The position numbers were made by a program, and so were the translations under genes. Source: Spongilla lacustris (taxonomy: Eukaryota > Porifera > Demospongiae > Spongillida > Spongillidae). From it: DNA of 64,000 nt. The stretch lies in the NCBI GenBank assembly GCA_949361645.1, contig OX442422.1, positions 8,031,534 through 8,095,533 on the forward strand, written 5' to 3'. Shown here in pieces: positions 21,400 through 48,960 of this stretch. The first letter of the stretch is position 1; each line of letters starts with the position of its first letter. Below the pieces are notes generated by a model. The model was not told the DNA's origin and made no database searches. It was given only the letters and a program-made list of their open reading frames with translations.

Positions 21400-21643
21400 G
21401 ACGTATTGGAAAACGCGACTGATCGTTAACTCAGTTTTGCTCTCATTATCATCTTTGCTTTAATACATAAATATCTATTAGCGTATATCATGCACATGCG
21501 CAAAAGGGGCGGGTAGTATATTGAAATAGGAAACGCGTCACGTGTGCTTTGACACACCATACTAGTATCACCACAATCCGCCGGCTGTTGGAGTCAAAAC
21601 CGGGTTACCCTGCTAGAAATCGACTGCAGTACTTTCAAATCAG
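21400..21643 (+). promoter_or_regulatory. Promoter and 5' exon of PARP-like gene copy 1
   Basis: The segment gaaatcgactgcagtacttt followed by a CAG/gtacat donor at 21643 is nearly identical to 40506-40537 upstream of the second PARP-like locus, including the preceding cgcgtcacgtg. Conservation of the exon end and its donor at both loci suggests a shared first exon, probably untranslated. Confidence 0.5.
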
Positions 21644-24599: not shown

Positions 24600-25713
24600 C
24601 AACAAATGCAGTGACTGCAGTCTATCTTCGTGAACTCACACCTAATTCTATCAAATTTAAGGATATATTGCATCATTTCTGCACCACCTGGGCTAAAGGA
24701 AGGTGTCCAAATGTGGACCATATTTTTGAAATTGATAATGCCAGGCTGAAGTTCAGATGGGATTATTTCAAGCAGTCTATGGGGTCACCTGTCACTGTGG
24801 AGCAGTATTATTATGGCAATACCTTACAGTGCGATCTAGCTAGTACCAAGCGTTTTTGTAAAAAAGAGGGCTGTTATATATGTCAAATAAGTCAAGGAGG
24901 GTTTGGAGTGACCACAAAATCAAGTAGGTCTGGCTGCCGTTTTGTCTTAGCTCCAAATTCCTCAAAAAGTGATAAATACACCCACAGAAGTTATAACTAC
25001 AGAACCATGCTTCTTTGTGATGTCCTCCCTGGGAAGAAGTACACAGTTCCTGCAAGTTCCACCAGAGTCCCTGCCCCCCCAGCTGGTTATGACAGCGTGT
25101 ACCTCACTCCTGGAGGGGGTCTGAATGATCCATTGATTGTGCTGTACGAGGAAGCCTGCATCTTGCCTCGTTATGTAATCATTTATGGGAGATATACAAA
25201 AGGTCAGCCTTCATGAAGGATTAATGTAGCAGAGCCACATTTGAATATTCATGCATGTGGCTACAGTATGAAGGATGCTGCATATTGTGATACTATTGCT
25301 GTTGTTGAGCTCAGCTTTGCAACCGTTACATTCACCTGCATGTTTAGTTATGTTTAGTTAATACAGTAAGGTGCAGGCTATTTTGTTGCATTTTCATTTC
25401 CTGCAAGTAGTTTGTGAGTTGTATTCATACCAATGGTATCTAACCTACAGACAATTCCCACGACTAATGCCCACAATATAGCTTATAAGTACGTGAATAA
25501 TTATATCTACATGTACATCACGTTCTATTTTGTTAGGTGTGTTTCACCACTTACTCCTTTCACTTACTTACTCTTTTTGTTATTCTTGTGCTTCTTACTC
25601 TACATGTGTTTCAGTCTACCTCTCAGTAGGGCCAAACATCCATCAATCACAAGGTTTGTTTTGTATCTCAACTTTTCATGAATTATACATGTATATACTA
25701 AAGAAGGTAAAAT
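24600..25713 (+). CDS. PARP-like (ADP-ribosyltransferase-fold) protein, copy 1
   Basis: The exon 24600-25202 follows a ttgtag acceptor and encodes a PARP-catalytic-like domain: CPNVDHIFEIDN, GCYICQISQGGFG, LAPNSSKSDKYTHRSY, MLLCDVLPGKKYTV, PPAGYDSVYLTPGG and ILPRYVIIYGRYTKG. The exon can end at AAAAG/GTCAGC (25202) or read on to a TGA nine bases later. A short following exon at 25630 (GPNIHQSQG) matches the linker exon of copies 2 and 3, but here it reads on to TAG at 25713 and no Death exon was found. By manual alignment the catalytic His is Tyr (YYYG), the GIYFA-type Tyr is replaced (FVLA), and the Glu is Pro (NDPLIVLY). It is therefore probably catalytically inactive, or at best atypical. 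Confidence 0.7.
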
Positions 25714-28300
25714 AGCTAGGTAAAGTTGCCTGAAGGAAAGAATGCTTAAACCTGCTTATTGATTGGACACCTCTACATGGAAAATATATTATTATAAACA
25801 TGTGTGTTGTATTTTAGAAAGTGTATTATTATATAAGTATAGTGAATATCTCAAATCAGTTGTACACAAACAATAGGGCATACAAATAAACACAAACATT
25901 AAGCATTCCTGCCTGCTGAGCAAGACAGATCAATGGCATGGTCAAGTGGGGAGCACGTGCCTCGATGGTATGATGACATATATGTGCATATAGAAAATGT
26001 ATATGTGCATATAGAAAATGTATGCACGTATATACAACTCCAAATGATTGTAGCTTAAATAGATGTCAAATCAGTGATGCACAAGGTTGTTTCATGGATG
26101 GGTCTGGGCACTCTAGCATGAGAACAGGAGCTTGTACTTGTGTATTGTTGCAATGGATATTGAGGATTTACAACATTGTGGGCCATATTATGTACACATG
26201 GGCTTATTAGCTTTCCTTCACTCTTATCACCTCCGTTGGATGTACGTGTGTTCTTGAATGCTATAATGTGTTCTGGAATGCTTACCAGGGCAGGCAAGGC
26301 TGGGATCATTGTACCAAACATTTCTTGTTACACAGAGTCACTTGGAGGACCAGAAAAGAAGTGGAAACCTAGCAGTGACATTATAGGTGATGAAAGTTGT
26401 GAAGATCAGAGCAGGTAGATGTGTAATTATGCTAAGAGGACGGACATGCCATGATGTAATAAATAAGATACATGGATTACTTTCCTTGAGCAGCTAGAAT
26501 GTAATAATAAGCCATGTTACATTCCAAGAATGGGGCCAACATAAGTTAAAAGGAGGTAAGGGACACACCTCCCCCCAGCAAAGGGGTATGGGGAGTGCTG
26601 TGAGCTCATACATCGGGGTCTGGGGCAGAGCCCCAGCCGCTTTGTAACTTTCGCAATTTTTTGAGTCCCGAAATCATAGCATAATTGCTTAGTACTAGAT
26701 ATGTCACGCGCAAAGCGTGGATTTGCGCAATCCCAGAATTGTCCTGTGCAAACCCTGGATCCACGGTTTGTGGTACAATCCATGGATTGGCTGCACAATC
26801 CTGGGATTGCCCTGCGCAAAGCATAGATCAGACAGATCTGTAATACATGTATATTAGTGATGGGATATCAAATAACATGCGTTTGCAGTACAAATAAAAG
26901 GCCTATGGTGTACAAATACAATTGTTCTCTTCTGATGAGACACCGAGCACAGGGAACTGTGCCATGGTTCAGAACTCTTGAAAATGTGGTCAGCTTCATT
27001 ACTTATTGTTGAGCAGTCCTTCGTGTCTCACTTCATTTGTGCAGTTGCTTGGCAAGCTTCCAATAATGCTAACAAATATGAAATAAATTTCTCCTGAGAT
27101 ATCACTTTTTCCTCACCATCACCAATATCTGCATTTTAATTGGCCTTTCATGTATAAATTACTTAGTTTCATGTTTATGTAGCCAATCAGCGCAAGACTA
27201 ATTTCCATTGATTAACTATCATTTCCTTCATCTTCACATTACTCAACGCAATTAAGGTCGTGACCCCCCCCCCTGTAACGTAATTAAAATTAGCTTGAAA
27301 ATGCATGTTACGCTTGGTTATTTTTCTTTCAGATTACTATAATGAAAGCACCTAAATCATATATGTAAAGAAAGAACACGAACTGAGGATTCGCAATATC
27401 CACTCCAAAATTTTACTGGACATTGCGATAAAGCTATTCCGACGTTTGAGTTCAGCCATGTTTGGCAAGGGAAAATCGCTCGAGGCGGAACTAGGTTGGT
27501 GTGCAACTTGGCATTGTGCTATGTCATTGTGTAGCTGAACTTGTGAACTACCCTAGAATGCACCCCGCTTATTAATTTATTACTAATACATGAAGTTGTT
27601 TGAAGTTAAAGTGCTTATATAAATGAAATTATGCACATGAACAAAGTTTATATGGTATTAAACTTCCGTTAACTAACTTCCAAGACAAGCGGTGAACGGA
27701 TCCAATTAGTAAAATCTATGTACGACACATACACATACCTTTCAGCCCGATAAACTAGGTTTTTGTGTTTCGCCTTTTACATAGCTAGTTCCTATATCAT
27801 TTTAAAGCGGCCGAATACTCTTTGTATGCGGCTGCTTAATCACGTGAGTTGAGCGGGGAACATCTGCAACAAATATTCTGTACTGGTCCATGTCAAGCAT
27901 GCCGCTCGTTCCAAGCAATCGTCACCGTCGTTCGTTCCAAGCAACCCGTCATTATAGTTCCGCCTTCAGGAGTCGCTAGCATAAAAGCCCTGTTACCTAT
28001 ACGTCATAACAAGGACCTTGGCAATTAAGTACACATGATAAGGCATCCTATGAATATGTTAGTACAATAACAACAAGCAGCATGCAGACGGGAGTATTCT
28101 GTCTTCACCGTCACTGAATATCATCGCTTCAACATTTAAGGTAAACTGGTGGAAAGAGAAAAATAATGTTCATTGGTGCATATGCATGTCAAAATAGGCA
28201 CTCCAAATAGGTTTTGCCATTTAGCACAACCTGAGGAATTCACAGTAAAAAAAGAGGGTCAGAATCAATTCTTGAATTCCAATTAATTTGACCCTTACAT
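25714..28300. other. Intergenic, no gene recognised
   Basis: AT-rich sequence. It includes a block rich in inverted words such as gcgcaatccc (about 26690-26800) and an ordinary spacer. A frame near 26176-26418 (KWKPSSDIIGDESCEDQSR) could be a stray exon, but nothing supports it. Confidence 0.35.
26690..26800 (-). repeat. Interspersed repeat, copy in minus orientation
   Basis: The complement of about 26715-26780 (ccagggtttgcacaggacaa ... gggattgcgcaaatccacgc) matches 32325-32395 in plus orientation with few mismatches, identifying a dispersed repeat. Confidence 0.6.
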
Positions 28301-28343
28301 TATGATACATGTTTACATACCTGGTACAAAATGCTCATCAATC

Positions 28344-28344
<1 letters not shown>

Positions 28345-28405
<61 letters not shown>
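28345..28405. repeat. CA microsatellite
   Basis: An uninterrupted run of about 30 CA dinucleotides. Confidence 0.95.
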
Positions 28406-28408
<3 letters not shown>

Positions 28409-28519
28409 TCAACCACTTAATACAAAGAACAAAAGCAATGTGTCAATGCAAATATATCTAGTTATGCTTCAGATAACAATTAGAATTAAACCGTCTTGAT
28501 CTAAGAGACTTAGAATCCA

Positions 28520-28938
28520 TAGCAGTAGGGAGGGGCTACTAAGGACCAGTGGGGAGGGGCTACTAAGAACCAGTGGGGAGGGACTACTAAGGACCAGTAG
28601 GGAGGGGCTACTAAGGACCAGTGGGGAGGGGCTACTAAGAACCAGTGGGGAGGGACTACTAAGGACCAGTAGGGAGGGGCTACTAAGGACCAGTGGGGAG
28701 GGGCTACTAAGAACCAGTGGGGAGGGACTACTAAGGACCAGTAGGGAGGGGCTACTAAGGACCAGTGGGGAGGGGCTACTAAGGACCAGTGGGGAGGGGC
28801 TACTATGGACCAGTGGGGAGGGGCTATTAAGGACCAGTGGGGAGGGGCTACTAAGAACCAGTGGGGAGGGACTACTAAGGACCAGTAGGGAGGGGCTACT
28901 AAGGACCAGTGGGGAGAGGCTGCTAAGGACCAGTGGGG
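28520..28938. repeat. 28-bp minisatellite
   Basis: About 15 copies of ggggaggggctactaaggac plus cagt. Variants tactaagaac and ggactact are arranged in a higher-order pattern, with a three-unit block repeating near 28540, 28624 and 28708. Confidence 0.9.
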
Positions 28939-29029
28939 ATTCTAAATCACATGGATCATAATGGTTTCAGTATCCAATGTGACAAATCAGATTGCAAGGT
29001 GTTATAGCGATGAGGGTCGCCGTTATGTG

Positions 29030-30046
29030 TGAGTGGGGATGTATTATGAGAATAGGGGTGTGAGTGTTGTGTGTGAGTGGGGTGATGTATGCGAGTGGGG
29101 TGTTGTATGTGCGTGGGGTATTGTGTTTGAGTGGTGAGAATAGGGGTGTGAGTGTTGTATGCGAGTGGGGTGTTATGTTTGAGTGGGGTGTTGTGTGCGA
29201 GTGGGGTGATGTATGCGAGTGGGGTGTTGTATGCGCGTGGGGTTTTGTGTGTGTGGGGTGTTGTGTGGGGTGTTGTGTGTGAGTGGGTGTTGTGCATGAG
29301 TGTGGTGTTGTGTGCTGTGGTGTTGAGTGCAAGTGGGGTGTTGTGTGCAAGTGGGGTGTTATGTGCAAGTGGGGTGTTGTGTGCAAGTGGGGCATTGTGT
29401 GCAAGTGGGGTGTTGTGTGTGTGAGGTGTTGTGTGTGTGAGGTGTTGTGTGTGTGAGGTGTTGTGTGTGTGAGGTGTTGTGTGTATGAGGTGTTGTGTGT
29501 GTGAGGTGTGTGTGAGGTGTTGTGTGTGTGAGGTGTTGTGTGTGTGGGGTGTTGTGTGTGTGGGGTGTTGTGTGTGAGTGTGGGTGTTGTGAGGTGTGTG
29601 TGTGAGGTGTGTGTGAGGTGTTGTATGTGTGGGGTGTTGTGTGTGAGTGTGGGTGTTGTGCATGAACGAGTGTGGGGTGTTTGTGCAAGTGGGGTGTTGT
29701 GTGCAAGTGGGGTGTTGTGTGCAAGTGAGGTGTTGTGTGCAAGTGGGGTGTTGTGTGCAAGTGGGGTGTTGTGTGTGTGTGGTGTTGTGTGTGTGAGGTG
29801 TTGTGAGTGTGGGTGTTGTGCATGAGTGTGGGGTGTTGTGTGCGAGTGGGGGTGTTGTGTGCGAGTGGGGTGTTGTGTGTGGGGTGTTGTGTGTGGGGTG
29901 TTGTATGCGAGTGTGGGTGTTGTGTGTGTGGGGTGGTGTGTGCAAGTGGGGGTGTTGTGTGCAAGGGGGAGTGTTGTGTGCAAGCGGGGGTGTTGTGTGC
30001 AAGTGGGGGTGTTGTGTGCAAGTGGGGGTGTTGTGTTCGAGTGGGG
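29030..30046. repeat. 1-kb GTGTTGTGTG minisatellite
   Basis: Degenerate units of gtggggtgttgtgtgcaa (15-20 bp) fill the block. Minus-strand frames of up to 360 codons made of HTTP repeats are artefacts of the composition. Confidence 0.9.
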
Positions 30047-30049
30047 GTG

Positions 30050-33000
30050 CAAATGCTCACTTCAGAAGGTTCAGTGTGTGGCAGCACAGGAGCAGATTGC
30101 TGGTGATAAAGAATGCAGCGTTGATGCCATTCTTTCCACTCCTTCCAATCTTGCATGCATAGCCTGGTGATGAGGCATCATGTAAGAAGCATAAAATGTC
30201 ACAATAGAGGAAATTGTTTTTAATACAATGGATTCTATCACATGTACTGTTGAAACAAAGCTGTGCAAGGCCATTCTGTTATGATGATGTGAATTGAGTA
30301 TATATAAAATAGCAAAGTGGTAGATTCATGCATGGTCTATATGTAGCCCACCATTTCACATAAAGTCTATACTGGGAGACCCCAATGTATTACTGTCATG
30401 TAATATTATACTGTATCTACACTTTGTTGTGCCTTTCATTTTGCCTACATGCAATGGACATGTTCTTCCGTGTTACCTGTGATACATGTGTGTGTTGTGA
30501 AAGTACCAGTGCAGGAATTATAGAACTAGGGGCAATTAGGTGGGAGTACTGTGACTGTGCTTGTGTGTAGGAGTGATAACCAGTTTGTAGAAGACACACA
30601 CGTTACACACCCGGCGCCCTCGTAACAAAGGAAAGTTTATTGTAAATAGTAACCACGGGAAATATACACACGATAGTGGCTTTCTTAGTTTCTAACGGAA
30701 TATGCCTAGTTGCTGGCTAATACATCAAAGAAACAGGTATGTGTATTGCAGTTGTGTTTTTAAAGTGCCACTTCGATCACCCGCTTAAACAAAATGCCTA
30801 CCGCCCACACGCAAGTAATCACCTTATTTTGTCGAAGTAAGTGATTTCCTTCCCATGTTCAGGTAGTAGTCGTTCAAAGTTTCTGTAGTCTGTACAGTAG
30901 ATCCTGAATAAGGTTGTCTGGTATGGCTAGGCCCGGTAGTATGCAGATCGCTTCGTGGAGATATACGTACCTTCGGGAAGCTTACTCAATCGGTATAAAG
31001 ATTCACCTGGCCTCAAGCGCAGACTTTAACTAGATACTCTAATCATATATAGACTCGATCTAGAAATGGCGGTACGGTACGGTATAATTTTGTCACAGGA
31101 TTCTAGCGCGCGCTTCGCTAAAATTGTGTTTCCAAGGCGCTACGCGGCGTGCGCGTAAAATGAATGTACCCAGCCTTAATTTAGTTGAGTACCTCTTTCC
31201 TCAAGTCCTTGACTTTGAGGATGCCAGTCTGCCATTATAAGAATGGTCGAGTCACCAGGCCAGTTCTTTACAAAATCAGCAATTAAAGTGCTCCCATTGT
31301 GATATAAGCAATTAACTGATTTGGTGCAAGGTTCCAGGCCACCTCCTTGCCCCTCTCCTCTGACTGACTCTGAAGAGTAGGATTAATCCACACCTATCCA
31401 ATCACTGGTGATTAACCTTGTACAGTATATACATGTAGGTAAGTACTTTTCTCATAAATCCTGATGCTATATGATGGATTCTAGTGGCACTGACTATGAG
31501 AACTGGAAAGGGGACACTTGCAGGCTCACAAACTGAATATCTGTACCGTAGACCATGGAAGATATTCAAAGAATGCCGAATCTATATTTGAAAAAACACA
31601 TACACACATACATGTATAATTATGAAATTAACTATTTTCTCTGTTCAGTACGAGTGTAACTTATGTTATATATGAGCCCATTGTTGACACTGTCATAAAA
31701 ATTTTTCCCCAAACACCACTTTACTAACGTGACTAGAACGGTGGTATTACTAAGATTTAAAAAAAAAAGGACGAAAAATACTTGTCACATGTTTCTAATG
31801 CTGGCTGGTGAACAGAGCACATCACAGAGTCAGCGTCCAAGTGCAACTTAACCCAAAACTTCAAACGGTCAGTACTAGTCCCATTTATAAGTGCAACTAC
31901 CCAACAAACTAGCTCCCTGATTTCCTTTTTGGCAAATACGGCAGTATCGTGATTAACATTGACAGTACCAATATGACTTTCACCCACTGCCATGATTAGC
32001 GGGTGCCCATAAGCTGGATTCAAGTGAAGCCACTGTGCCTTTCGCAACCATCACAAAACTTCTGAAAAGTGTTCTATTGAGTATCAATCGATCCACTCTT
32101 AATAATGCCTACAACACAACTTACCGTCTTGAAATTTCAAGCACAAATAGGTTGGAGACCCCAATCTGCCAGACCGACAGGGGATCTCATCTTATCTGTG
32201 TGTACGCTCATTGGCTCTGCCAGGCTCTGGTGTAGTCGATACAACTTTTGTGCCTTCGTTATAGTTGAACATTACGAGATACGAGCTGATTGGGTTAAAA
32301 TACATAAGGGCAATCTCGAGATTGTGCAAACAACCGTGGTTCCAGGGTTTGCACAGGGCAATCCCGGGATTGCGCAAATCCACGCTTTATGCGTAACAGA
32401 TATACATGGGTAACAATTACCTGCTTCCAGACTCTCGCAAACCAAATACTTGGTCCCTGGCCATTTTATATCGGGCCATGCAAATTGTATAATCACGATA
32501 GGACTCTGTAGTGGATCAACATCATTATTTATTGTTTACATGTAGGTCAGCTGAACATCCCTGCTTTGTTACATGCCGCTACCTCGGGTGTCTTCAAATC
32601 CAAACTTGGTTAACGTAGTAACGCAAGTGCACCCCGTAACCTGCATGCAATATGGATGTGGAATAGAAATTAAATAAACAAAATGATTAATTGATTGGAT
32701 GGAACAGCTAATTATGATTAAATAGTATTCGCTACTGATGTATTGAACTTCATGAAGAGATGAGTGACGCATTCGACAAAGGTACTAGACTGAGGAGGCA
32801 CACAGGCATGTGCACACATTAATGCACTGTGCATGTTAGTGTTATTAGAAGGAGGGGCTCTATAGAGAAGTTGCACCTGACATCATGCGCGTCTTACATC
32901 ACTGTGTATGTTGCTATAAATATACACTGTGTGGGTACCAGGTAAACAATAACCGAATGGGAACTAACAACGGAGGAAAGAAGGCGGTGTCATACGCTCG

Positions 33001-33400
33001 TGTGGTACATATTTATAGCTTGTTGTATACATAAATAGCAACATACATATGATGTAGTTGACGCACATGATGTCAATGCAACTCTACAGTGTAATAAATA
33101 GTTTTGCTGTGTATTTGAGGCACACGGGCTGCTAAACACATGTACATGTCCACACATTGACACATATTACTAGGGGGAGGGGGGACAAGCACTGACGTCA
33201 CTGTACAAGCTGAAATTGCAAGGGGGGGGGGGGGGGGGGGGGGGGAAACCCCCTCCAGCCACCCCCTAGCTCTGCCAGTGGCATGATTGTTCAGCACATG
33301 CATACTAGTACCACATGTGCACATTTTATGTATATTTGTGCAGTGCATGGCTACATTAGGTAAGTATATAAAACGCTTATCAAATTCTTCACTTATGCAG
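30050..33400. other. Unassigned region upstream of the ROCO-Death gene
   Basis: It must contain the missing 5' exons and promoter of the ROCO-like gene, unless these lie further left, but I cannot place them. A minus-strand frame at 31757-32047 (AYGHPLIMAVGESHIGTVNV and on) has normal composition but no family I know. A 24-bp poly-G run sits at 33222-33245. Confidence 0.3.
32325..32400 (+). repeat. Interspersed repeat, copy in plus orientation
   Basis: Matches the complement of about 26715-26780. It contains ccagggtttgcacagggcaa and gggattgcgcaaatccacgc. Confidence 0.6.
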
Positions 33401-35841
33401 GAAGAGTTATGACGAGGCCATGAAGAAGGGATATGTGGAAACAGCAGTGATCAAATGCCTCATTCTAGGGGCAGCTGGTGTTGGAAAGACTCACCTCAAA
33501 CACCTTCTTCTGAAGAAGGACCATCCAAAGCAACGTGTCAGTACAGGACTGGCTGACAACCCTGTTAGAGCCATCTCCTTCACACTGGCTGGTGTGGGTG
33601 AACTAGAGGAGGATGACTGGTTTGTGGTTGAAGATGACAAGGCACTGATGAATGTTATTGGAGGAACCATCAAAGGTGGTGTATCCATGGCACCATCATT
33701 GGCTGATATGGTGAGCACTCTCCCAAAGATGGCCATAGACCCTTCCAATGTACCCAGTGATGGAGCTGTTGGTCCCACCCCTGCTGGTGTGAACATCACC
33801 AAGGACACCACCCAGCCTGAACAGAGCAGAGCTGCAGATATAGCGGATGAGCTGGTTCATTACATCAACCAATCCTCAGGTTAGAGCAGCAGGCCTTATT
33901 ATTTGCTTGTATCAACCCTAAATCTCCCTCAGTAGATAACAAGAAGTTGTTTGGTGTGAAGTGGATCCAGTTCATTGACAGTGGTGGTCAGCTGCAATAC
34001 CATGACATCCTTCCATTGTTCATTCAAGATCCCATGGTAACAATATTTGTACTGAAGCTGTCAGAAGAGCTATCGTATCACCCCACCATTGAGTACTATG
34101 GAGCAGATGGCAAGCCTGTTGGTAAACCATACCGATCATCTCTCTCTCATAAACAGATCCTTCAACACTGCCTTGGAGCAATTCACTCACAGGATGCTCA
34201 TCCTCAGATCATCATTGTGGGAACATATCGAGATGCCAAAGATAGCTGTGTAGAAACCATGGAACAGAAGAACCAACAACTCCAGGCACTACTGGATTCT
34301 ACCTACTTTAAGGTGCTGTTTTGTGGAGAAGGAATGAAAGAGCTTATATTTGCTCTGAATGGCCTTTCCCCTGAAGATGTGGACAGACATGTTGCCCAGG
34401 TACTTAAGAAGCAAATCGTATCCAAATCACCCCAGCAGTTAATAAAGATGCCTATAGCATGGTTTGGGCTGGAGGTTGTTCTCCAAAGGTCTTCCCATGA
34501 TGGTGTCTTGAGTCTTGTAGAGTGTCAGGTGTCTGCTAAAACGTTTTACATTGAAGGAGATGCATTCTCTGCTGCCTTGCACCATCTTGTCAAACACAAT
34601 GTGTTCTTATATTACCCCGAGGTTCTTCCCCAGACAGTGTTCTGTGACCCCCAGGTAGTCCTCACCAAGGTGACTGAACTAGTGCAGTATCACCACAAGC
34701 TCAGAGATAATCCAGATGGGGGTGTGGCAGCTGAGAGTGACCTGGTCATGTTCAGGGACCATGGTCTGTTGTCAGTGGAGCTACTGAGGAAGTTTCCAAA
34801 GCACTACAAAGAGGGTCTGTTCACTCCACAAGATTTAGTGAAGTTGCTGGTGAGTCGTGGTGCCATAGCTATGATCAGAGATGGTGAGTACTTGATGCCT
34901 GCTCTGGTGCCCCACCTGGACTCCACCCAAGTGTCCAAGTACCTTGAAAGAGGTACCTCCCTGATGATTAGGTTCCCCCATGGCTATATTCCTAGTGGTC
35001 TGTTTTGTTGTCTTGTGGCCCTTCTACTTTCATCTTCTTGGAAGTTGTGCATGGCTAGGAGCAAGCCGTTGTGTCTGTATCGCAACTGCATCAGATTAGT
35101 ACATAAGAGTTCCTCAGAAGTTGTGACCCTTGTTGACATGTTCTCCTATATAGTAGTGCATGTTGATGAGACTTCAAGTGAGGTGTGTAGGGAATTAAAA
35201 GGTCTTGTCCACAGTGGTATCAAGAGTGCCTGTAGTGTGCTCAAGTACCATAATGTCCAGTATGAAGATGCCTTCATGTGTGCGGGAGCTAGTTGTTCCT
35301 CAGACCCTCCTCATCTAGCTGTAGCTGTGTATTCAAGGTCAGCATACAAGTGGAAGTGTACCATTTTAGAAGACCAGAAAGGAGACCTGAGTGAGGACCA
35401 GCTGATATGGTTCGGTGGAAACAGTAGTTTTTTGCTAACAGGTTTGGAGGACCAAAAGCCCAATACAACAGGTGGGTGATGTGTGTGGTAGTACCATTTG
35501 ACCAACATCTGTTCCATCTCTGTACAGTTCCTGTGTCCCTGGACAGTGAACCATCATTACCACACCTCATGGACAGGGTAGCAGCTGTGATTCCCCACAA
35601 GTTTGAGACAGTTGGACTTCAGCTTGGCCTCACACTAGGTGAGCTTCAAGTGATAGGTCCAAATCATCCAAGCCTGGAGGACCACCACAGAGCATATGGT
35701 GAGATGTTTGGTGTGTGGAGGAGACATGGGTCCCCTCCTTACACCTGGAGGACAATCATCGGTGTGTTGAGGTGTGCTAGTGTTGGTGAAGTCCTGTTGT
35801 CTGAACAGTTGACCTCCTGGCTGGGATCAGGTAATCCATGA
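33401..35841 (+). CDS. ROCO-like GTPase with C-terminal Death domain (5' partial)
   Basis: Exons 33401-33879, 33933-35471 and 35528-35841 join in phase (776 residues in the window). The first begins at an acceptor mid-codon, so upstream exons are missing. Residues about 20-30 carry a P-loop, LILGAAGVGKT. FIDSGGQLQYHD is the DxGGQ switch II motif. IIIVGTYRDAKD holds the base-recognition TxxD-type motif. A roughly 60-residue insert separates P-loop and switch. The middle (CQVSAKTFYIEGD to YLMPALVPHLD) resembles a COR-like region. The last exon is a Death domain (HKFETVGLQLGLTLGELQVI ... YTWRTIIGVLRCASVGE). Such proteins act as nucleotide-switched scaffolds for Death-fold signalling (family knowledge). 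The intron at 33880 is only 53 bp. The stop follows GSGNP; a CAG/gtaatc donor just before it could allow a longer form. Confidence 0.85.
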
Positions 35842-37754: not shown

Positions 37755-38019
37755 TTGCTGTACAGTCACAAGAAGACACAGCAATCTACCTGGATAGAGC
37801 TACCAGATGTAGCATACTACCGTTCAGCTTTATGTGTGGTTAATTGATGGTGTGATGCATTGGATGTGTACTAAGCACACCTCCCTAAGACCCTAACTCT
37901 GGGAGATTTGGGAATGACACAACTCCACCCCTTAGGGAAGTGAGGAAGTGTTCTTACACACATGTGCACTGTTGTAAGTGAGTCCATACATACCATGTGT
38001 ACTCTAGTTATACATGACC

Positions 38020-40429: not shown

Positions 40430-40537
40430 GCGTCACGTGGGCCCATGACACAACGCGGGCAATCCGCGGAATGATTTGTAACTTTGCTTCTGGAGGCAAA
40501 AGTCACTTAGAAATCGACTGCAGTACTTTCAAATAAG
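40430..40537 (+). promoter_or_regulatory. Promoter and 5' exon of the tandem PARP-Death gene
   Basis: gaaatcgactgcagtacttt then an AAG/gtaaat donor (40537) matches 21622-21643. The flanking cgcgtcacgtg (a CACGTG E-box) is also shared. No such sequence precedes the third PARP exon, so the two downstream PARP exons probably share this one promoter. Confidence 0.5.
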
Positions 40538-43255
40538 GTAAATATGAAGTCACCATTTAATTCGAGCACGATCGCGATACATATACGTTTTACTTACACG
40601 ATGCTGTAGAGTACTAGTATGAGCATGTTTTGTTATCAGTAGCCCCCTTGTTTATACTTACTTCGCTCAGAGGATCGTCGAAAATTCGGCACGTACATGT
40701 AGCCTACTGTATTTGAAGGATATTACACGCCTGGTCTATAGGCAACATTTCGTGTGCTAGCGACAGAATCTTGTCGCTAGCTAGCAACCAATCATATGAT
40801 AATCGATGAACACATGTTCAGCTCGCACGCTAGATGTTGAAAGCGCTATCGTAACGGCTTCTAAGCAGCTGGGCCGAACTGCGCCTAAATCAAAAGGGCG
40901 CAGATGTGTTTGTGCCAACTAAAATGGAAAGTACAGGCCCTGGATGATTCCCAGGTTGATAGGTTTTTAGCAAAATTCACAGTTGACTTTCTCACCCTCG
41001 ATGCCGACGATGGTTGATTTAGACCTAGTCTTTATCAACCTATATTTTTAAAAAAGGCTAGCTGCGAGGATCCATTGATATCCTCAGGTCGACGTGAAGA
41101 GCGACGCTTCTCTTAGTTCGACGGTACACAGACAGTGACTCACACGGGGTTATGCGGAAGCACTGTAGTCAATTCTACTAGAGCAGTTTGGCGAGTACCA
41201 TTTTCAATCCGTACCTAGAGATGCTCTGCTAGCCAGAAACCATAAAAGTGGTCTGAACCAGTAAACAGGCATACGTACGCATTGTCAACTCCTGTTTCAA
41301 AATTGTACTACTATAACAGGATTTTAAAGAACAAGACGAAGATATTAATCAATTTGATGTTAGTTTAAACGCTCGACTTTTTTTTTTTCAGTGCGGGGGC
41401 TTAATGCACGTGCACGCACTTTTATGGTACTAGTAAATTGATGTTAAACCCTATGAACACTTCTATCTATTATAGCAACCCCTAACTTACTTGTTCCCCC
41501 CCCCCCCCCCCCCCCTGGAAATAAAATAGTTTACCCTATCCTGGCCCCCCCTTCCAGAAATGCTGGGGGCACCCATGGTGATACTCTCAATGAGCTTTCA
41601 AAGATGGTGTCTTCATTTTGTCCCCCGCAATTCAAATGTATGTTATTATCAAGTTGCAACTTGCTGTATCATGAAATTGCACTTGAGTTCTGAGTTGATG
41701 GATATCAAATCCCAGAAGGCAAAGGCAGTCATCTTTGTTCAAGTCATCATTTTTGAGATTGAGAACAAAAAAGCCTATTTGATCCAGTTCCCAGACCCAT
41801 TCTTCTTGAATTTCCTCAGATAGTATAACTTGGGATAGGAACGCCGGTTTTAAAGAGTGTTAATAGCTTTAGACATTACCTCACATATACACATTTTGCC
41901 AAACACCATGACAATCCAGTATGTATGGTTAGAAACTTATGGTATAATGCCGTTGAACTGGTGTAAATACAATTGGTGTTGTCAATGCCTATGAGGATGG
42001 GGGGGGGGCAAAATTCCCCAGGCCAGTACAGTTAAGGGGCCCGGGCCTTAATGATGCCTGCTCCCGTAATTCTACATATCTTGAGCAAATTTTGTCTGGG
42101 CCCAGACTGTTTTTATTGTTATAACCAATCATAGCGTTTTATTTCCTATTTAATGAGTGAGCATGATCTACCACCACAAATTAGGCAGCGGGGGAGCTCC
42201 AGATATATGTATCAAAAATGTGATGTTTTTTTGTTGTAAAAATTTGTTCTACACGGGGAAGGAGCGGCCAACTTGTATTGCATGATGCCCCAGAGACCGT
42301 TAGACTGAGCAGGGCCGTCACCACCACATGGCTGTAACTTGACAGTGTCTCAGCCCACACCCGTATTATTACATCATTGTGCACACACACACATAGTTTA
42401 TACATCTAAATTATTTGAAATCCGTCAGCAGCTCGATGGGGCAGCTTGTATTGAGGTTTTTGTTCACTTAGAAGTATACACATTTGCCCCCAAGGCCTGC
42501 CTATCACTCATAATGTTGCTGAATGCTATTTATGATGGTGAAGTCCTCTCTTACCTCAAAGAGTTGTTTCCCAGGCATTTGGAGTAACCCTTTTATGCAC
42601 ATAACCTCTCAGCGATGTTTTCTGTGGTGAATGCAAAGATGGTCACCATGCATGAGAAATGTACTTGTATGTAACCAAAATTTTCATGTGCCATGTTTAA
42701 TTTAGCTCTGTACAAGTAGACAACCAGCGTAATGTTCATTGACATCATGCAGGAAATCACAATTAGCAGACACGTATCTTTACAGCTCAAGCAGTGAATG
42801 CTGAATCCTTTTATATGTGACCTTTAATGGCTAGTGTAAGAGGTAAGGAAACATAGCATTGAACAATTGTTTGATAGGTACTATGTGCACAATGAATTTC
42901 AGTTAATTTTTAATACAAGGGGAAATTAATGTTGCACAGAACAAGGTCAACTCAGCAGCATACAATTACATTGCATGTATCATTCAGGCCCGTAGCCTCC
43001 CTCCCCCATTCAATACTTGAGTTCCGCCCCCTCTAGTTATGATACTTTTTAAGAATAATTTGCCTCAGGCCCAAAGGTGACAGCGGGCTTTCATTTAGCA
43101 TGAGGGGACCCCCCCAGCCAGACTTCCTGGCTACGGGCCTGTCATATGGCTGTAACTGGCACATGAACATATGAAATGTATGACAGAACTGAATTGATAT
43201 GTTGATTAAGGAAATGAAAGTGGGCATATCTTTATTGCTGTTCCTATATTTTCAG
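40538..43255. other. Presumed 5' intron of the tandem PARP-Death gene
   Basis: Patchily similar to 21.6-24.6 kb. An 82-codon frame at 42339-42587 (PKACLSLIMLLNAIYDGEVL) reads like protein but is not conserved at the first locus, so I leave it unassigned. Short poly-C runs occur near 41500 and 42000. Confidence 0.35.
42985..43141. mobile_element. 157-bp MITE with CAGGCCCGTAGCC ends
   Basis: It begins caggcccgtagcc and ends ggctacgggcctg, a perfect 13-bp inverted terminal repeat. A related, longer version lies before the next PARP exon (about 44370-44555, ending at the same ggctacgggcctg), so it predates the tandem duplication. The first PARP locus lacks it at the matching place. Confidence 0.7.
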
Positions 43256-46200
43256 ACCTTGCAGCAACAACTGCAGTGGCTGCAGTTCATCTCCTTGAGC
43301 CTGATTCTGTCACATTTCAAAATATATGTGATCAGTTCCAAACCTCCTGGGTTAAAGGGAAATGTCCAAATGTGGACCGTATTTATGAAATTGATAATGC
43401 GAAACTCAAGTCGAGTTGGGATTCTTTCAAGCAGTCTATGGGGTCACCTGACACTGTGGAGCCGTATTATTATGGCAAAACTTTACAGTGCGACCTACTT
43501 AGTACCAAGCATCTTTGCAAAAATGTGGGCTGTTATATATGTCAAACCAGTCAGGGAGAGTTTGGAGTTAACAGCATTTCAGGTTTCCATTTTCTCTTAG
43601 CTCGAAATTCCTCCAAAAGTGATGAATACACCCACAGAAGTTATAACTACAGAACCATGCTTCTTTTTGATGTCCTCCCTGGGAAGAAGTACACAGTTTC
43701 TGCAAGCCAGACCAGACTCACTGCCCCCCCAGCTGGTTATGACAGTGTGTACCTCAGTCCTGGAAGGAATCCGAATGATCAATTGATTGTGCTGTACAAG
43801 AAAGCCTCCATCTTGCCTCGTTATATAATCATTTATGGGAGATATACAAAAGGTCAGCCTTCATGAAGGATTAATATAGCAGAGAGAGCATGTGAATATT
43901 TTAGGTACCAATTGGAGGTATTATTATGTATATGGTGAATGCATGATGTGGATGCTGCATATTGTGATATCATTACTATTGCTGTTGTTGGGGTGAGCTT
44001 TGCAACCGTTTACATTAACCTGTTTCTTCTTGTTCTATATCTGTAGCTTCTGTAACAATTGTTAAAAGCAATCACACATATTGTTTCCTGACAGTTGTGT
44101 GCGATTTATATTAATAGCAAAAGATGCTATGTAACTCGCAAATGACTCAACACCCACTATTTCATGTGTTTTACCCTACTTACAGTATTTGTTATTCTCT
44201 TAGGGCCACACATCCATCTATCACAAGGTTGCGATCGTAGTTTAATCAGTGGTGCCCACAGTACAACAGGTGGGTGATGTGTTTGGCAATACACAGTACC
44301 CAATGTAGGCCTACGCCTACTTGATGATTACAGTTTATTGTATGTATAAGATTGGTCGACCCCCCCCCCCCCCCCCGTTGAATGCTTGAGTTCCGCCCTC
44401 TAGTTATGGTACTTTTTAAAAAAATCAGGCCCGAAGGTGACAGAGCTCTGCCGAGCTTAAATTTAGTGCGAGGGGGACTCCCCCCCCCCCCCATATGTAA
44501 TAGAAATTCTGCATTGATCCCCACCTCCAGCCAGACTTCCTGGCTACGGGCCTGTCATATGGCTGTAACTGGCACATGAACATATAAAATGTAAGACAGA
44601 TTAAAAAAATAACTGAATTGATATGTTGATTAAGGAAATGAAAGTGGGCATATCTTTATTGCTGTTCCTATATTTTCAGACCTTGCAGCAACAACTGCAG
44701 TGGCTGCAGTTCATCTCCTTGAGCCTGATTCTGTCACATTTCAAAATATATGTGATCAGTTCCAAACCTCCTGGGTTAAAGGGAAATGTCCAAATGTGGA
44801 CCGCATTTTTGAAATTGATAATGCGAAACTCAAGTCGAGTTGGGATTCTTTCAAGCAGTCTATGGGGTCACCTGACACTGTGGAGCCGTATTATTATGGC
44901 AAAACTTTACAGTGCGACCTAGCTAGTACCAAGCGTCTTTGCAAAAATGCAGGCTGTTATATATGTCAAACCAGTCAGGGAGAGTTTGGAGTTAACAGTA
45001 GTTCAGGTTTCCATTTTCTTTTAGCTCAAAATTCCTCCAAAAGTGATGAATACACCCACAGAAGTTATAACTGCAGAACCATGCTTCTTTTTTATGTCCT
45101 CCCTGGGAAGAAGTACACAGTTTCTGCAAGCCAGACAAGACTCACTGCCCCCCCAGCTGGTTATGACAGTGTGTACCTCACTCCTGGAAGAAATCCGAAT
45201 GATCAATTGATTGTGCTGTACAAGAAAGCCTCCATCTTGCCTCGTTATATAATCATTTATGGGAAATATACAAAAGGTCAGCCTTCATGAAGGATTAATA
45301 TAGCAGAGAGAGCATGTGAATATTTTAGGTACCAATTGGAGGTATTATTATGTACAGAATGTTTCACAATCAAAGGATAATTGTTTATAAATTAACCACA
45401 AGCAGTTTATTAACTGGTGATTGTTGTTAAAAGTTCTAAAAGAAGACATGCTGGTGAAATAATCTTTAATGGTTTATTAATGTTGATAAAAGTCCCAAGA
45501 CCCCTATTCATTTCAATTAAATATTATTAATGTTAATAAGTGTAGGGTTGGTGGTTGTTTAAAAAGCTGCAAATTAACTGCTCCCATTAAAAAGTTATTC
45601 AAGATTGAAATTTTGATTTTTGCAATGTACTTGATTTAGGGGCCGTTGTATCTCGATTTAGTGGTTTGAATTTATTAATACATTCGGCCTAATTTATATT
45701 TTAAAATTCAAGGAAATGTTAGGGCTTTTGAATGCCTCTAAAATGTTATGTTTTGATTAGGTGTTATTGGGAATTATTAATTCGTTTTCGTTAATTTAGA
45801 TTTTTTTATTATATTAAATTAATTATTAAATTAATATACATCAACATTTAAGCTCACATCAATGGAGCATTTACCAACAATTTTAAGTTAATTAACTGCT
45901 TGTGGTTAATTTATAAACAATTTTCCGTGATTGTGAAACACCCTGTATATGGTGAATGCATGATGGGGATGCTGCATACATGTATTGGGATATCATTACT
46001 ATTGCTATTGTTGGGGTGAGCTTTGCAACTGTTTACATTAAAACCTTTTTCTTCTTGTAGCTTCTGTAACAATTGTTAAAAGCAATCACACATATTGTTT
46101 CCTGACAGTTGTGTGCGATTTATTTTAACACCGTGTCCGCGAGTAAAGTGGGTAAATTTTGGCCGTTTTAGGGGGAAATAAAAAAACTAAGAGATCCACT

Positions 46201-47606
46201 GATGAGTATTATTGTTTTCAAATACAGAAATGTGAAAGTACAACTCTTGAGACGACATTGGATGCATTTTGTGAGAGATCATTCAGCTCGCTGGATGGTA
46301 TAAATGTGGCGATATAAAAGGAGTCCATGCCGATGAAACCATAATTCAGCATCGTAGAAAAACGGCAATAATCCCATTGTATAAGCCAAATTGAACTTTT
46401 AAGCATTTCAATCGTTTTTCAGTTGTAAGCGATGTATTTTTTTAACTGTTTGCATGTGTTCTATCATGTCTATAAAATACTATACGTTACTGCGTGCGGT
46501 TTAACTTGGTTGCTTTGCACGCTGCTTTGCGAGTCTGCATGCACATGTAATTTTTATTATCAAGGAAACCAAGAGCTGCATTGATATAGATGGCTCTTGT
46601 ATGCACAGTCAAGAAGGGAAGGGTTGCAAAATTATAAAATGATAAGTGTAGTACCACAATATGCCTATTTAAAGTGTGTGCATCAGAACTGCGATAGTTG
46701 CAGCTCTTACAAATTATAATGAAAACGTAGTGCAAAAGGTTACTCTACTTATTTTACAAGCAGTACCTGTGATTCTATTGCTAGCAGATCTTTTCGTTTT
46801 TTATTTTCCCCCTTTTTCGGACCCACTTTACTCGCGGACGCGGTGTTAATAGCAAAAGATGCTATGTAACTCACAAATGACTCAACACCCACAATATAGC
46901 TTCTATTTCATGTGTTTCACCCTACTTACAGTATTTGTTATTCTCTTAGGGCCACACATCCATCTATCACAAGGTTGTGATCGTAGCTTAATCAGTGGTG
47001 CCCACAGTACAACAGGTGGGTGATGTGTCTGGCAATACACAGTACCCAATGTAGGCCTACTTGATAATTACAATTTATTGTATGTATACTTTTTTTCTAT
47101 ACATTGTGTTAAGATATGTTTGTGACAACCAACATTTGTAACAACTAGCCCCATCTCATGATCTCTGTGTGGTAAACTAACATGCAAAAAGATTTTCACA
47201 TGTAATTTTTAATTTGACAGCTCACGGGACCACCTATTGCAGAATGCCATGCATTATTAAATAGTAGCTATTTTGTAAGCTAGGTATTATATCTCTTCTA
47301 CTAGAACAAGCTGCAGGACCCCCCACCCTGGAGCGGTTACTGCACTTCACTGGCAAAACCAGGACATTCAATGTAGCCACAGAAGTGGGAACTGCATACT
47401 CAAAGATGGGAGTCTTCCTTTTGAAGGATCAGACTGGAGTTGTTGTGCAGGCTCTGGAAAATGAGCATATGAAGGATGCTGAGAGGATCAACCAAGCCAT
47501 TTTTAGCCAGTGGCTCCAAGGGAAGGGAGCACAGCCTGTAGCCTGGTCAACACTGATAGGTGTATTGAGGAAGATAGGCCTGTGTGCATTGGCTGATGAG
47601 ATATAG
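43256..47606 (+). CDS. Tandem PARP-like domains plus Death domain
   Basis: Coding exons are 43256-43852 (PARP-like), 44204-44269 (linker), 44680-45276 (PARP-like), 46950-47015 (linker) and 47305-47606 (Death, TAG). Every one begins and ends in phase 1, so PARP-linker-PARP-linker-Death reads through with GT-AG joins; earlier coding exons are not identified. Skipping copy 2, or treating each as a separate gene, is also possible. The PARP domains are about 96% alike (CPNVDRIFEIDNAKL, SSKSDEYTHRSYN, KASILPRYIIIYG). The terminal exon is a Death domain (SKMGVFLLKDQTGVVVQALE ... AWSTLIGVLRKIGLCALADE). By manual alignment the catalytic His is Tyr (PYYYG), the GIYFA Tyr is Leu and the Glu is Gln (NDQLIVLY). 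I infer a Death-fold signalling protein with pseudo-ART domains. Confidence 0.7.
45355..45945. mobile_element. 591-bp MITE, TA target duplication
   Basis: Ends are cagaatgtttcacaatca and, inverted, cagggtgtttcacaatca. The inverted repeat extends about 50 bp (attgtttataaattaacca, then agcagtt). It is flanked by TA on both sides. The equivalent place in the preceding duplicate (about 43930) reads attatgtatatggtgaatg with a single TA, i.e. the empty site. TA duplication and CAGGG-type ends fit the Tc1/mariner class. There is no transposase. Confidence 0.88.
46129..46845. mobile_element. 717-bp MITE, TTAA target duplication
   Basis: Ends are caccgtgtccgcgagtaaag and, inverted, caccgcgtccgcgagtaaag, continuing to tgggt (25 bp with one mismatch). 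Flanked by TTAA on both sides. The preceding duplicate has a single TTAA at the matching place (tttatattaatagcaaaag near 44110). TTAA targeting suggests a piggyBac-type source. Confidence 0.88.
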
Positions 47607-47640: not shown

Positions 47641-48960
47641 TTGAAGGGTGTGAATGCTGAACTGGAAGATCACTTGATGATTTTACGTAAAATCCACCAT
47701 GGAGAGGTGATAGTTACTCAATGTCGTGCATGTGGCATGTACAGTAGGCTATACAGCTGTATTTGTGGACTCAGCCCTAATAATATTCATGCAAATTCTC
47801 CATCTCGTGATAGACCTTTAGTTTACCCATACACGTGTACACCTGCACTGGATTATCAACCTAAACAATACATGTAGATAATCTACGTAAGTGAGCCGGA
47901 CCACAATGTACGCCTTCACAGCAAACACCTGTTGCACGGATGTACATACATGCATGCTATATAAAACTGTTAAAACGGTTACATTAAAACCCATTTGCAG
48001 ATCGTGTGTGATGTCTATACAACCATCATATGGGTCCTTTAATTTTAAAGGTCTGCCTCCAAGTTCAGGGCCGGGGCCACATCTGCATTATCTGTATCAG
48101 ACCATGGGGAAGCACTTCTTGAGTTGTCCAACTTGTGAAAGGGTTTGCAAAGGACACGGCTATAACACTCAATGTTGTGGATACAAGCTGCATGCAATTA
48201 TGTCTCCCTCTGTTGTTCCAAGAACTGCATTTTGGAATGGACCCTTTGCATGAAAGATCGGAAGTACGATAAACGTCACGTCTGGAGTAAAAACCACAGC
48301 GGTTGCTTAGAGACATTGTGTCACGTCCGCGGACCTTTGCGTAATAAAATGGCAACGCTCGGAGTCAGCTCAGACATTGATCCTACGGCCGATCCAGTTC
48401 CTGATCAAACTATGCTGCCAACAGTAAGTTTGACCGGGTCTGACATACCCAGAGCCTTTTTAAAGCCGTCCATTTAAAAAGGCTCCGGGTATGTCGGACT
48501 CGGTCAAGCTTACTGTTGGCAGCATAGTTTGACCAGGAACTGAATCGGCCGAAGGATCACTGTCCGAGCGGGAAGGAATGACTATGAGCGCTGCCATTTT
48601 ATTACGCAAAGGTCCGCGAACGTGACACAATGTCTCTAGGCAACCGCTGTGGCTTTTACTCCGGACGTGACGTTTATCGTACTTCCGATCTTTCATGCAA
48701 AGGGTCCATTGGGCAAGATGAATGCTCAGATGATATAATAATTCAGCTGCAAAGAAAACACTGGATATATGGATGGACCACATCAATAGACCTACCGCCA
48801 CCAGTGATATATCTAAAGGTGAATTGTAGAGACATAAAACTTCTATATCCCTACAGGGACTGTTCCAGCAATGGAGGACCCAGCTGCATCCTTGCAAAAT
48901 ATGTACTGTGGCATGGTGTGCTGAAGTATGATGATGACGAGTCTGGCTTTTGATGTGACA
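47641..48960 (+). pseudogene. Unassigned coding-like sequence split by a palindrome
   Basis: Before the palindrome, 48100-48235 reads HFLSCPTCERVCKGHGYNTQ ... YKLHAIMSPS with paired Cys. After it, 48711-48953 reads ECSDDIIIQLQRKHWIYGWT ... YPYRDCSSNGGPSCILAKY. Composition looks protein-like on both sides, but I recognise no family, and the frames are not continuous through the insert. It may be a transposon-encoded protein. Confidence 0.3.
48236..48710. mobile_element. 475-bp foldback palindrome
   Basis: Two arms of about 235 bp meet near 48473. The left outer end aatggaccctttgcatgaaa equals the complement of the right outer end, and the inner sequence ctttttaaa...tttaaaaag forms the turn. 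Arms differ by scattered substitutions and small indels (e.g. gatcctacggccga versus tcggccgaaggatc), so it is not an assembly mirror of a single arm. Fits a foldback element or old inverted duplication. Confidence 0.85.

Follow-up and report, generated by a model that had tools for sequence, protein, structure and literature searches.

A predicted sponge gene combining two PARP-like domains that lack the catalytic triad with a Death-type exon

Inactive PARP domains and the shuffling of Death-fold domains have both been described. The C-terminal PARP domain of PARP13/ZAP carries the triad Y-Y-V and is inactive, as stated in the cited section of PMC8795897. Marine invertebrates possess lineage-specific Death-fold proteins, such as Amphimedon Death-TRADD-N proteins with variable C-termini, and a DED-TRADD-N-ART architecture occurs in the oyster (both from the cited section of PMC8195603). 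Here we describe a locus from the sponge Spongilla lacustris, within a 64,000-nucleotide stretch of DNA (the window), in which predicted pseudo-ADP-ribosyltransferase (pseudo-ART) domains in tandem and a C-terminal Death exon form an arrangement that differs from these systems. Its PARP-like domains share with PARP13/ZAP the same H to Y change and the absence of the catalytic Glu, and 4x52 is the best PDB match of a single PARP exon (E 0.002). Unlike PARP13/ZAP, the window copies lose the Tyr too, stand in tandem and carry a Death-type exon, and Pfam shows neither CCCH zinc fingers nor WWE in the scanned exons. The invertebrate proteins covered by that section of PMC8195603 are similar in that a Death-fold is shuffled with variable domains, including ART in oysters. 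However, they contain TRADD-N and an N-terminal death-fold, whereas the present gene has its Death exon at the C-terminal end and a predicted pseudo-enzyme as its ART. In the open-access literature nothing was found joining PARP, death domain and exon shuffling, on sponge Roc/COR/LRRK with ankyrin, or on Ephydatia sponge PARP with SH2.

The exons of the gene at 42786-47606 on the forward strand (gene 2) likely encode one predicted protein and would be spliced together. They comprise a start exon (42786-42842, coding from 42827 to 42842 for MASVR plus one base, with a phase-1 donor), PARP-like exon a (pseudo-ART; 43256-43852, 597 nt, phase 1-1), linker exon 1 (44204-44269, 66 nt), PARP-like exon b (44680-45276, 597 nt), linker exon 2 (46950-47015, 66 nt) and a Death-type exon (47305-47606) that ends in the stop codon TAG. 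The predicted joined frame of 547 aa, MASVR-PARP-linker-PARP-linker-Death, is open with its sole stop terminal, all internal borders are in phase 1 and the introns run GT...AG. Inspection of each internal border bears out the exons and phase-1 GT-AG borders proposed by an earlier sequence-only reading, as well as its suggestion that a PARP-linker pair can be skipped without frame loss, since omitting one pair leaves an intact open frame of 326 aa. The two PARP-like exons, which it called near-identical, agree over 97.15% of their DNA and 95% of their protein. Five compared stretches flanking them are 95-100% identical, which points to a recent tandem copy. While the exons it listed are real, the start exon and a third PARP-like exon further upstream had been missed. 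The start exon reads ATGGCTAGTGTAAGAG and is followed by the donor sequence GTAAGG. The candidate end of a 5' untranslated exon lies at 40500-40537 on the same strand, with a donor at 40538, within a 77-column alignment (84%) with an upstream paralogue; a genome search with 40480-40600 as query gave two matches, its own place and that paralogue. MITE-like insertions are present in the intron after PARP exon b.

The upstream paralogue (gene 1, forward strand) has a candidate 5' untranslated exon end at 21606-21643, identified by paralogue alignment and genome search, a start exon at 24348-24393 (coding 24378-24393, MASVR), the third PARP-like exon at 24600-25202 (protein 73% identical) and a linker microexon at 25630-25653 (24 nt, phase 1-1). 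Conservation between the paralogues forms islands at the PARP exon, the start exon and the 24-nt linker, which fit the exon model. The PARP exon is identical at 505/588 positions and the start exon at 42 of 46 aligned bases, with 11 gap columns, and the intron 3' of the start exon at 89/125. Each linker exon of gene 2 contains an additional donor, also in phase, 24 nt into the exon (after 44227 and after 46973), and conservation with gene 1 is restricted to those 24 nt, with 22/24 identical versus 42/99 in the flanks (28/57 and 14/42; P = 8e-6). From the linker of gene 1 up to the neighbouring gene, no Death exon of gene 2's kind was found.

None of the three window PARP copies retains any residue of the H-Y-E triad (0/3), which is replaced by Y-L-L, Y-L-L and Y-V-L, and the second glycine of FGxGxY is replaced in every copy. 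The related protein P0042 has Y-F-L. All three residues are kept in 11/11 aligned relatives from contig C1 (11 of 20 matches, leaving out L023-L028, which are fragments or stop-bearing, and rows without a locus). In 25 database proteins aligned together with P0042, out of 52 returned, H is kept in 25/25, Y in 24/25 (one gap) and E in 25/25; P0043, P0046 and P0051 among them may share their species with the window. Residue loss is concentrated in the pocket motifs though not confined there. In the 25 proteins, 39 columns reach 90% conservation or more, 8 of them in pocket motifs; those changed in all four pseudo-copies (three in the window plus P0042) make up 6/8 of the pocket-motif columns versus 1/31 of the others (P = 5.7e-5). 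With the C1 copies alone as reference the comparison gives 5/7 versus 5/43 (P = 0.002). The three window copies keep 34, 33 and 39 of the 50 C1-invariant columns. They score 19.3-21.4 bits against PF00644, below its cut-off of 26.7, compared with 39.6 and 41.9 bits for two C1 relatives, and in an alignment of window and C1 copies 14/14 rows match PARP at E <=0.01. Profile searches, as the sequence-only reading had proposed, thus recover PARP homology at sub-threshold scores for the window copies. The ADP-ribosyltransferase fold that it suggested is upheld as homology to PARP domains, but ADP-ribosyltransferase activity is unsupported because none of the three copies has kept H, Y or E. By analogy with PARP13/ZAP, we predict that the window PARP domains are pseudo-enzymes.

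Over the PARP domain, the window copies are 39-46% identical to sponge PARP proteins (Ephydatia P0001 and P0005, Em-tagged P0002 and P0003) and 26-31% identical to basidiomycete-fungal-type and unnamed PARP proteins, and four conserved cysteines are common to the window, sponge and basidiomycete domains. Unlike the window copies, the sponge and fungal proteins keep H-Y-E; P0002 and P0003 carry SH2 and P0006 a kinase domain. The PARP-Death order, which the sequence-only reading proposed to look for in other sponge and cnidarian proteomes, was found in none of 39 + 15 database hits by their Pfam annotations, an absence that is weak evidence because Pfam misses this Death type. A tblastn search around the C1 PARP genes, covering 1.5 kb either side of L012-L028 and 10 kb for L039 and L040, found no Death exon at E 1e-3 except at L022, where a different Death-like exon belongs to a gene on the opposite strand.

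The Death-type exon has at least 151 matches in the genome. Alone it scores 12.9 bits against PF00531 (E 0.13; cut-off 22.6), is outranked in Pfam by a poxvirus core-protein family (E 0.044), and 4/10 members of its alignment match Pfam Death, at E up to 1. A 35-sequence profile of the family retrieves three Fas Death-domain entries from the PDB with E-values of 1.5e-4 to 2.7e-4, the next best match being at 0.89, and a 10-sequence profile retrieves Fas at 0.0089; alignment A2 took 9 of the matches to the Death exon and alignment A4 34 of 56. The Death assignment of the sequence-only reading consequently falls short in Pfam and is recovered through the family profile, which suggests that this exon family likely forms Death domains. 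Among the matches listed, its closest kin are exons at C9:7.93 Mb and C9:8.00 Mb (89-91% identical), the terminal exons of ankyrin-Roc-like-GTPase genes that lie at distances of 78 and 147 kb on this contig. In a tree of eight Death rows the window exon groups with these two, with a support of 99 versus the other six. The phase-1 acceptor also resembles that of ankyrin- and Kelch-linked Roc-like GTPase-Death genes, and the Death-type domain was likely copied from a gene of this large family. The 3' end of the linker with its donor, as in linker exon 2, matches the exon ends of Roc-like genes over 34 nt (88%; whole-genome E 2e-8), which gives the gene the appearance of a mosaic assembled in part through exon capture; this donor resembles a Roc-like subfamily other than the ankyrin-linked one. 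The earlier proposal of an ADP-ribosyltransferase-type domain in frame with a Death-type exon, in phase-1 exons suited to shuffling, therefore stands, the former domain by homology.

In contrast to the Roc-like GTPase-Death genes, the PARP gene has no GTPase part: GTPase and COR-position exon queries against the window matched only 33.4-35.5 kb and nothing in the PARP gene. A Roc-like GTPase gene lies there (33401-35841, forward strand; exons 33401-33879, 33933-35471 and a Death-like exon at 35528-35841), with an open joined frame, and is of the type whose exon end the linker matches. A frameshift after its Roc-like exon was rejected, as a 53-nt GT-AG intron (33880-33932) fits and the joined gene is open; three uninterrupted copies (L051-L053) vary in length at this place. 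Its GTPase exon has at least 151 genome matches. The Roc-like label is a weak one, based on weak matches, and searches of the PDB with L051 and of NCBIfam each gave one weak unrelated match. We take these genes to belong with DAPK among the ROCO proteins; the COR, which has no Pfam match, is presumed from position only.

We hold with moderate confidence that gene 2 encodes one 547-aa protein whose two PARP domains, devoid of H-Y-E, are followed by a Death-type domain that was probably copied from another gene, and that this protein would serve as a scaffold or decoy and not as an enzyme. The pseudo-ART domains may bind a partner or ligand, and their doubling would raise valency. The Death domain, at 89-91% identity to the ankyrin-linked exons, may bind products or partners of the ankyrin-Roc-like genes through Death-Death contact, and the resulting protein would recruit ligand to those Death assemblies or compete within them. 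It is thereby predicted to link a catalytically inactive fold with cell-death or immune signalling. Two-domain, one-domain and Death-less forms would arise if a PARP-linker pair were skipped, if the 24-nt or the 66-nt linker were chosen, or if reading continued into the TGA that follows YTKGQPS. More tentatively, the locus may reflect a sponge exon trade, in which a phase-1 Death tail from the huge Roc-like family is grafted onto unrelated domains, the dead ART pair acts as a PARP13-like decoy or sensor in Death signalling, and exon skipping and a read-through stop choose between Death-bearing and Death-less forms.

Two serious alternatives are less likely. The first is a decaying array, in which an ADP-ribosyltransferase gene lost its function and was duplicated, with its frames open by chance. 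The PARP-exon dN/dS between paralogues is 0.57-0.72, or 0.82-0.86 with transition correction and single-difference codons only (P = 0.29-0.35 versus neutral), and is thus not different from neutral. Decay would also account for the 16, 17 and 11 changes in the 50 C1-invariant columns, the MITE-like insertions after copy b and, in the PARP exon of gene 1, a TG where gene 2 has its acceptor AG. However, an in-phase TAG 9 nt downstream offers gene 1 a replacement acceptor, gene 1 and copy b differ by about 90 substitutions without a stop (neutral simulations, P 0.02-0.06) and by gaps of whole codons, and the pattern of residue loss is non-random. The dN/dS of the Death exon against its two closest relatives is low (0.197 and 0.185), although part of this may predate the joining to the PARP gene. 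The second is a small stand-alone pseudo-PARP that stops at the TGA behind YTKGQPS, which would leave the linker and Death exons unused or confined to rare forms. C1-type relatives do stop right after the PARP domain with a tail that is short and similar, and between the paralogues 31 of the 34 nt downstream of the PARP donor, the TGA included, are conserved. Against this, P0042 continues through the equivalent place without a stop, the linker island is conserved and the second PARP exon would require its own start. Moreover, neither AATAAA nor ATTAAA occurs in the 417 nt that follow the TGA of gene 1 or in the 341 nt that follow that of copy a, whereas the Death stop has an ATTAAA behind it at 47983. 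This evidence is weak, since such a signal is also missing from the 959 nt after the neighbouring Roc-like gene, and AT-rich inserts give copy b several of them. An active ADP-ribosyltransferase coupled to Death assemblies, favoured by PARP-domain homology, is highly improbable and was rejected on the altered catalytic triad, replaced in every copy along with the second glycine of FGxGxY.

If translated, the proposed 547-aa scaffold or decoy would couple a Death domain directly to a PARP fold that has lost catalysis and shows the H to Y change of human PARP13. Such a gene would offer a tractable example of early-animal cell-death or immune adaptors being made through the transfer of a single phase-1 exon, as well as a test case for pseudo-ART domains as ligand-binding baits. 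The expansion of Roc-like GTPase and Death exons around the locus, with at least 151 matches to each, may matter even more.

The five exons that the sequence-only reading had assigned to gene 2 lie where it placed them and are in phase 1, and its proposal that a PARP-linker pair can be skipped without frame loss also holds, as removal of one pair leaves an open frame of 326 aa. A start exon (42786–42842), which codes MASVR and ends in phase 1, is added to this model, and together the exons give a frame of 547 aa whose only stop is terminal. PARP exons a (43256–43852) and b (44680–45276) are 97.15% identical in DNA, and their nearest named protein relatives are from the sponge Ephydatia muelleri. 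The intron after copy b carries two insertions without counterpart in copy a, one at ~45355–45945 flanked by TA copies and with inverted repeats, the other at ~46129–46845 flanked by TTAA copies and with inverted ends. Both look like MITEs that arrived later than the PARP duplication. Nested inverted repeats also lie immediately 3′ of the gene at 48236–48710, with arms of 132 and 97 nt that are 95% and 91% complementary.

Gene 1, an upstream paralogue of the same build starting near 21.6 kb, provides a check on the model. Its start exon and PARP exon (24600–25202) match gene 2 at 42/46 and 505/588 positions, and the intron after the start exon at 89/125. The chief rival on transcript structure is a functional short form that stops at the TGA after the PARP donor; the segment past this donor, TGA included, is conserved at 31/34 positions between the genes, which leaves room for such a form to work. 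The linker (25630–25653 in gene 1) is itself a conservation island, with 22/24 positions identical compared with 28/57 before and 14/42 after it (P = 8e-6), as suits the joined PARP-linker-Death reading. Where gene 2 has the AG of its PARP acceptor, gene 1 reads TG, with an in-phase TAG 9 nt downstream, and no Death exon of gene 2's kind is found within 25630–35841. Exons 33933 and 35528 of the neighbouring Roc-like gene offer downstream acceptors of matching phase 1, and a join of the gene 1 PARP-linker to either is possible on paper.

Judged by sequence, the window PARP copies are probably dead PARPs, their catalytic residues being replaced. They score 19–21 bits against the Pfam PARP profile (cut-off 26.7), compared with 39.6 and 41.9 bits for two relatives on contig C1, which holds 20/24 of the PARP matches in the 248.6-Mb assembly. 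A profile built from 14 PARP copies matches tankyrases (E 1e-11), and its conserved Tyr and Glu align to a tankyrase Tyr and Glu that we take to be the catalytic ones. The catalytic columns read Y-L-L, Y-L-L and Y-V-L in the window copies and H-Y-E in 11/11 aligned C1 copies; all 25 aligned database proteins keep H and E, and 24 of them keep Y, with a gap in the remaining one. A further database protein, P0042 (tagged lgn, from a 1473-base contig), reads Y-F-L. Taking HGT, FGxGxY and E as the motif set of the pocket, and considering 39 well-conserved columns after exclusion of one Met column at the N-terminus, 6/8 motif columns are changed in all four pseudo-copies versus 1/31 others (P = 5.7e-5), with four more of the 31 altered in some; of 50 columns invariant among C1 copies, the window copies retain 34, 33 and 39, and all three are changed at 5/7 pocket versus 5/43 other columns (P = 0.002), the rows in both comparisons sharing ancestry. 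Two C1 loci (L039 and L040, 11.92–11.95 Mb) form a cluster of H-Y-E PARP exons with a cysteine-rich stretch upstream (CKTPNCPRQ...YDYCS..CR) and no Death exon. A parallel exists in PARP13, tabulated as Y-Y-V and 'catalytically inactive' (PMC8795897).

NG86 dN/dS is 0.50 between copies a and b, 0.57–0.72 between gene 1 and either, and 0.28–0.47 for five C1 pairs. With transition correction on single-difference codons the gene 1 comparisons give 0.82–0.86, no different from 1 (P = 0.29–0.35), and no stop separates gene 1 from copy b, for which neutral simulation gives P 0.02–0.06; constraint on the pseudo-PARP protein is thus suggested by pattern only, not by rate. For the Death exon (47305–47606), comparison with the two closest relatives gives dN/dS values of 0.197 and 0.185, and comparison with loci L032 and L037 gives 0.34 and 0.27. 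Three-way differences give ~0.16 for its own branch, a figure that also covers whatever period preceded its arrival in gene 2.

Pfam alone does not name the Death exon (Death 12.9 bits, E 0.13; a poxvirus family E 0.044), and a profile of 35 members of its family matches Fas Death domains (E 1.5e-4). It is one of at least 151 genome matches (best 150 of 220 candidates scored), the closest listed being, on the window's own contig, C9:7932019 (91%) and C9:8001104 (88–89%), which group with it apart from six other rows (support 99). Both are last exons of genes that combine ankyrin repeats with a Roc-like GTPase, and the acceptor regions are alike. At locus L041 the ankyrin repeats score 44 bits and the GTPase matches LRRK2 in the PDB (E 0.005), with Pfam Roc under its cut-off. 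A matching exon lies ≤1.5 kb upstream in 6/9 such Death loci; we label it putative COR from its position in ROCO proteins, and Pfam does not detect this domain.

The linker has a different affinity. Its 3′ end and donor match the corresponding exon end of the neighbouring Roc-like GTPase-Death gene (34 nt, 88%) and C9:118213 (E 2e-8), and codons for NTTG or STTG close 4/6 such exon ends (window, L045, L052 and L053; not L051 or L032). Where compared, Death exons of the linker-matching genes are only ~35–40% like that of gene 2, so the tail looks, at sequence level, like a mosaic of two sources. The neighbouring gene (33401–35841) belongs to a very large family: its GTPase exon has at least 151 matches at E 1e-5 (best 150 of 214 candidates scored), the top listed being 86–93% identical on many contigs, and N-terminal partners among relatives include ankyrin (L041, L042) and Kelch (L050). 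An apparent frameshift at 33880–33932, seen only when exons are read as frames, is a 53-nt intron, at whose place three uninterrupted copies carry indels. Downstream lies a Kelch-type exon fragment (37800–37844; 15 residues, 80%); elsewhere in the window, a tRNA match at 584–655 (−) scores 31.9 bits, barely over the Rfam threshold of 29.

Death-fold shuffling with variable partners is already known. Section 10 of PMC8195603 describes 357 TRADD-N proteins in Amphimedon, most architectures having Death-like units, and DED-TRADD-N-ART proteins in oyster; 128 Death-domain genes are reported in Dysidea (PMC12909245), whose main text contains none of the words PARP, ROCO and Roc and has COR a single time, in a legend. 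No pseudo-PARP joined to Death at its C-terminus came up in the open-access literature searched or among the database protein hits. The PARP type of the window also occurs in the Em-tagged proteins P0002 and P0003, there fused to SH2, and in P0006, there fused to a protein kinase; this PARP family seems prone to acquiring new signalling partners. If its PARP, linker and Death exons are spliced together and the Death exon was copied in the direction of gene 2, as we infer, the product most likely serves as a scaffold or decoy adaptor. A ligand would be held by the pseudo-ART pair, and through Death-Death binding the Death domain would dock onto the Death assemblies formed by the ankyrin-Roc-like proteins with the same domain.
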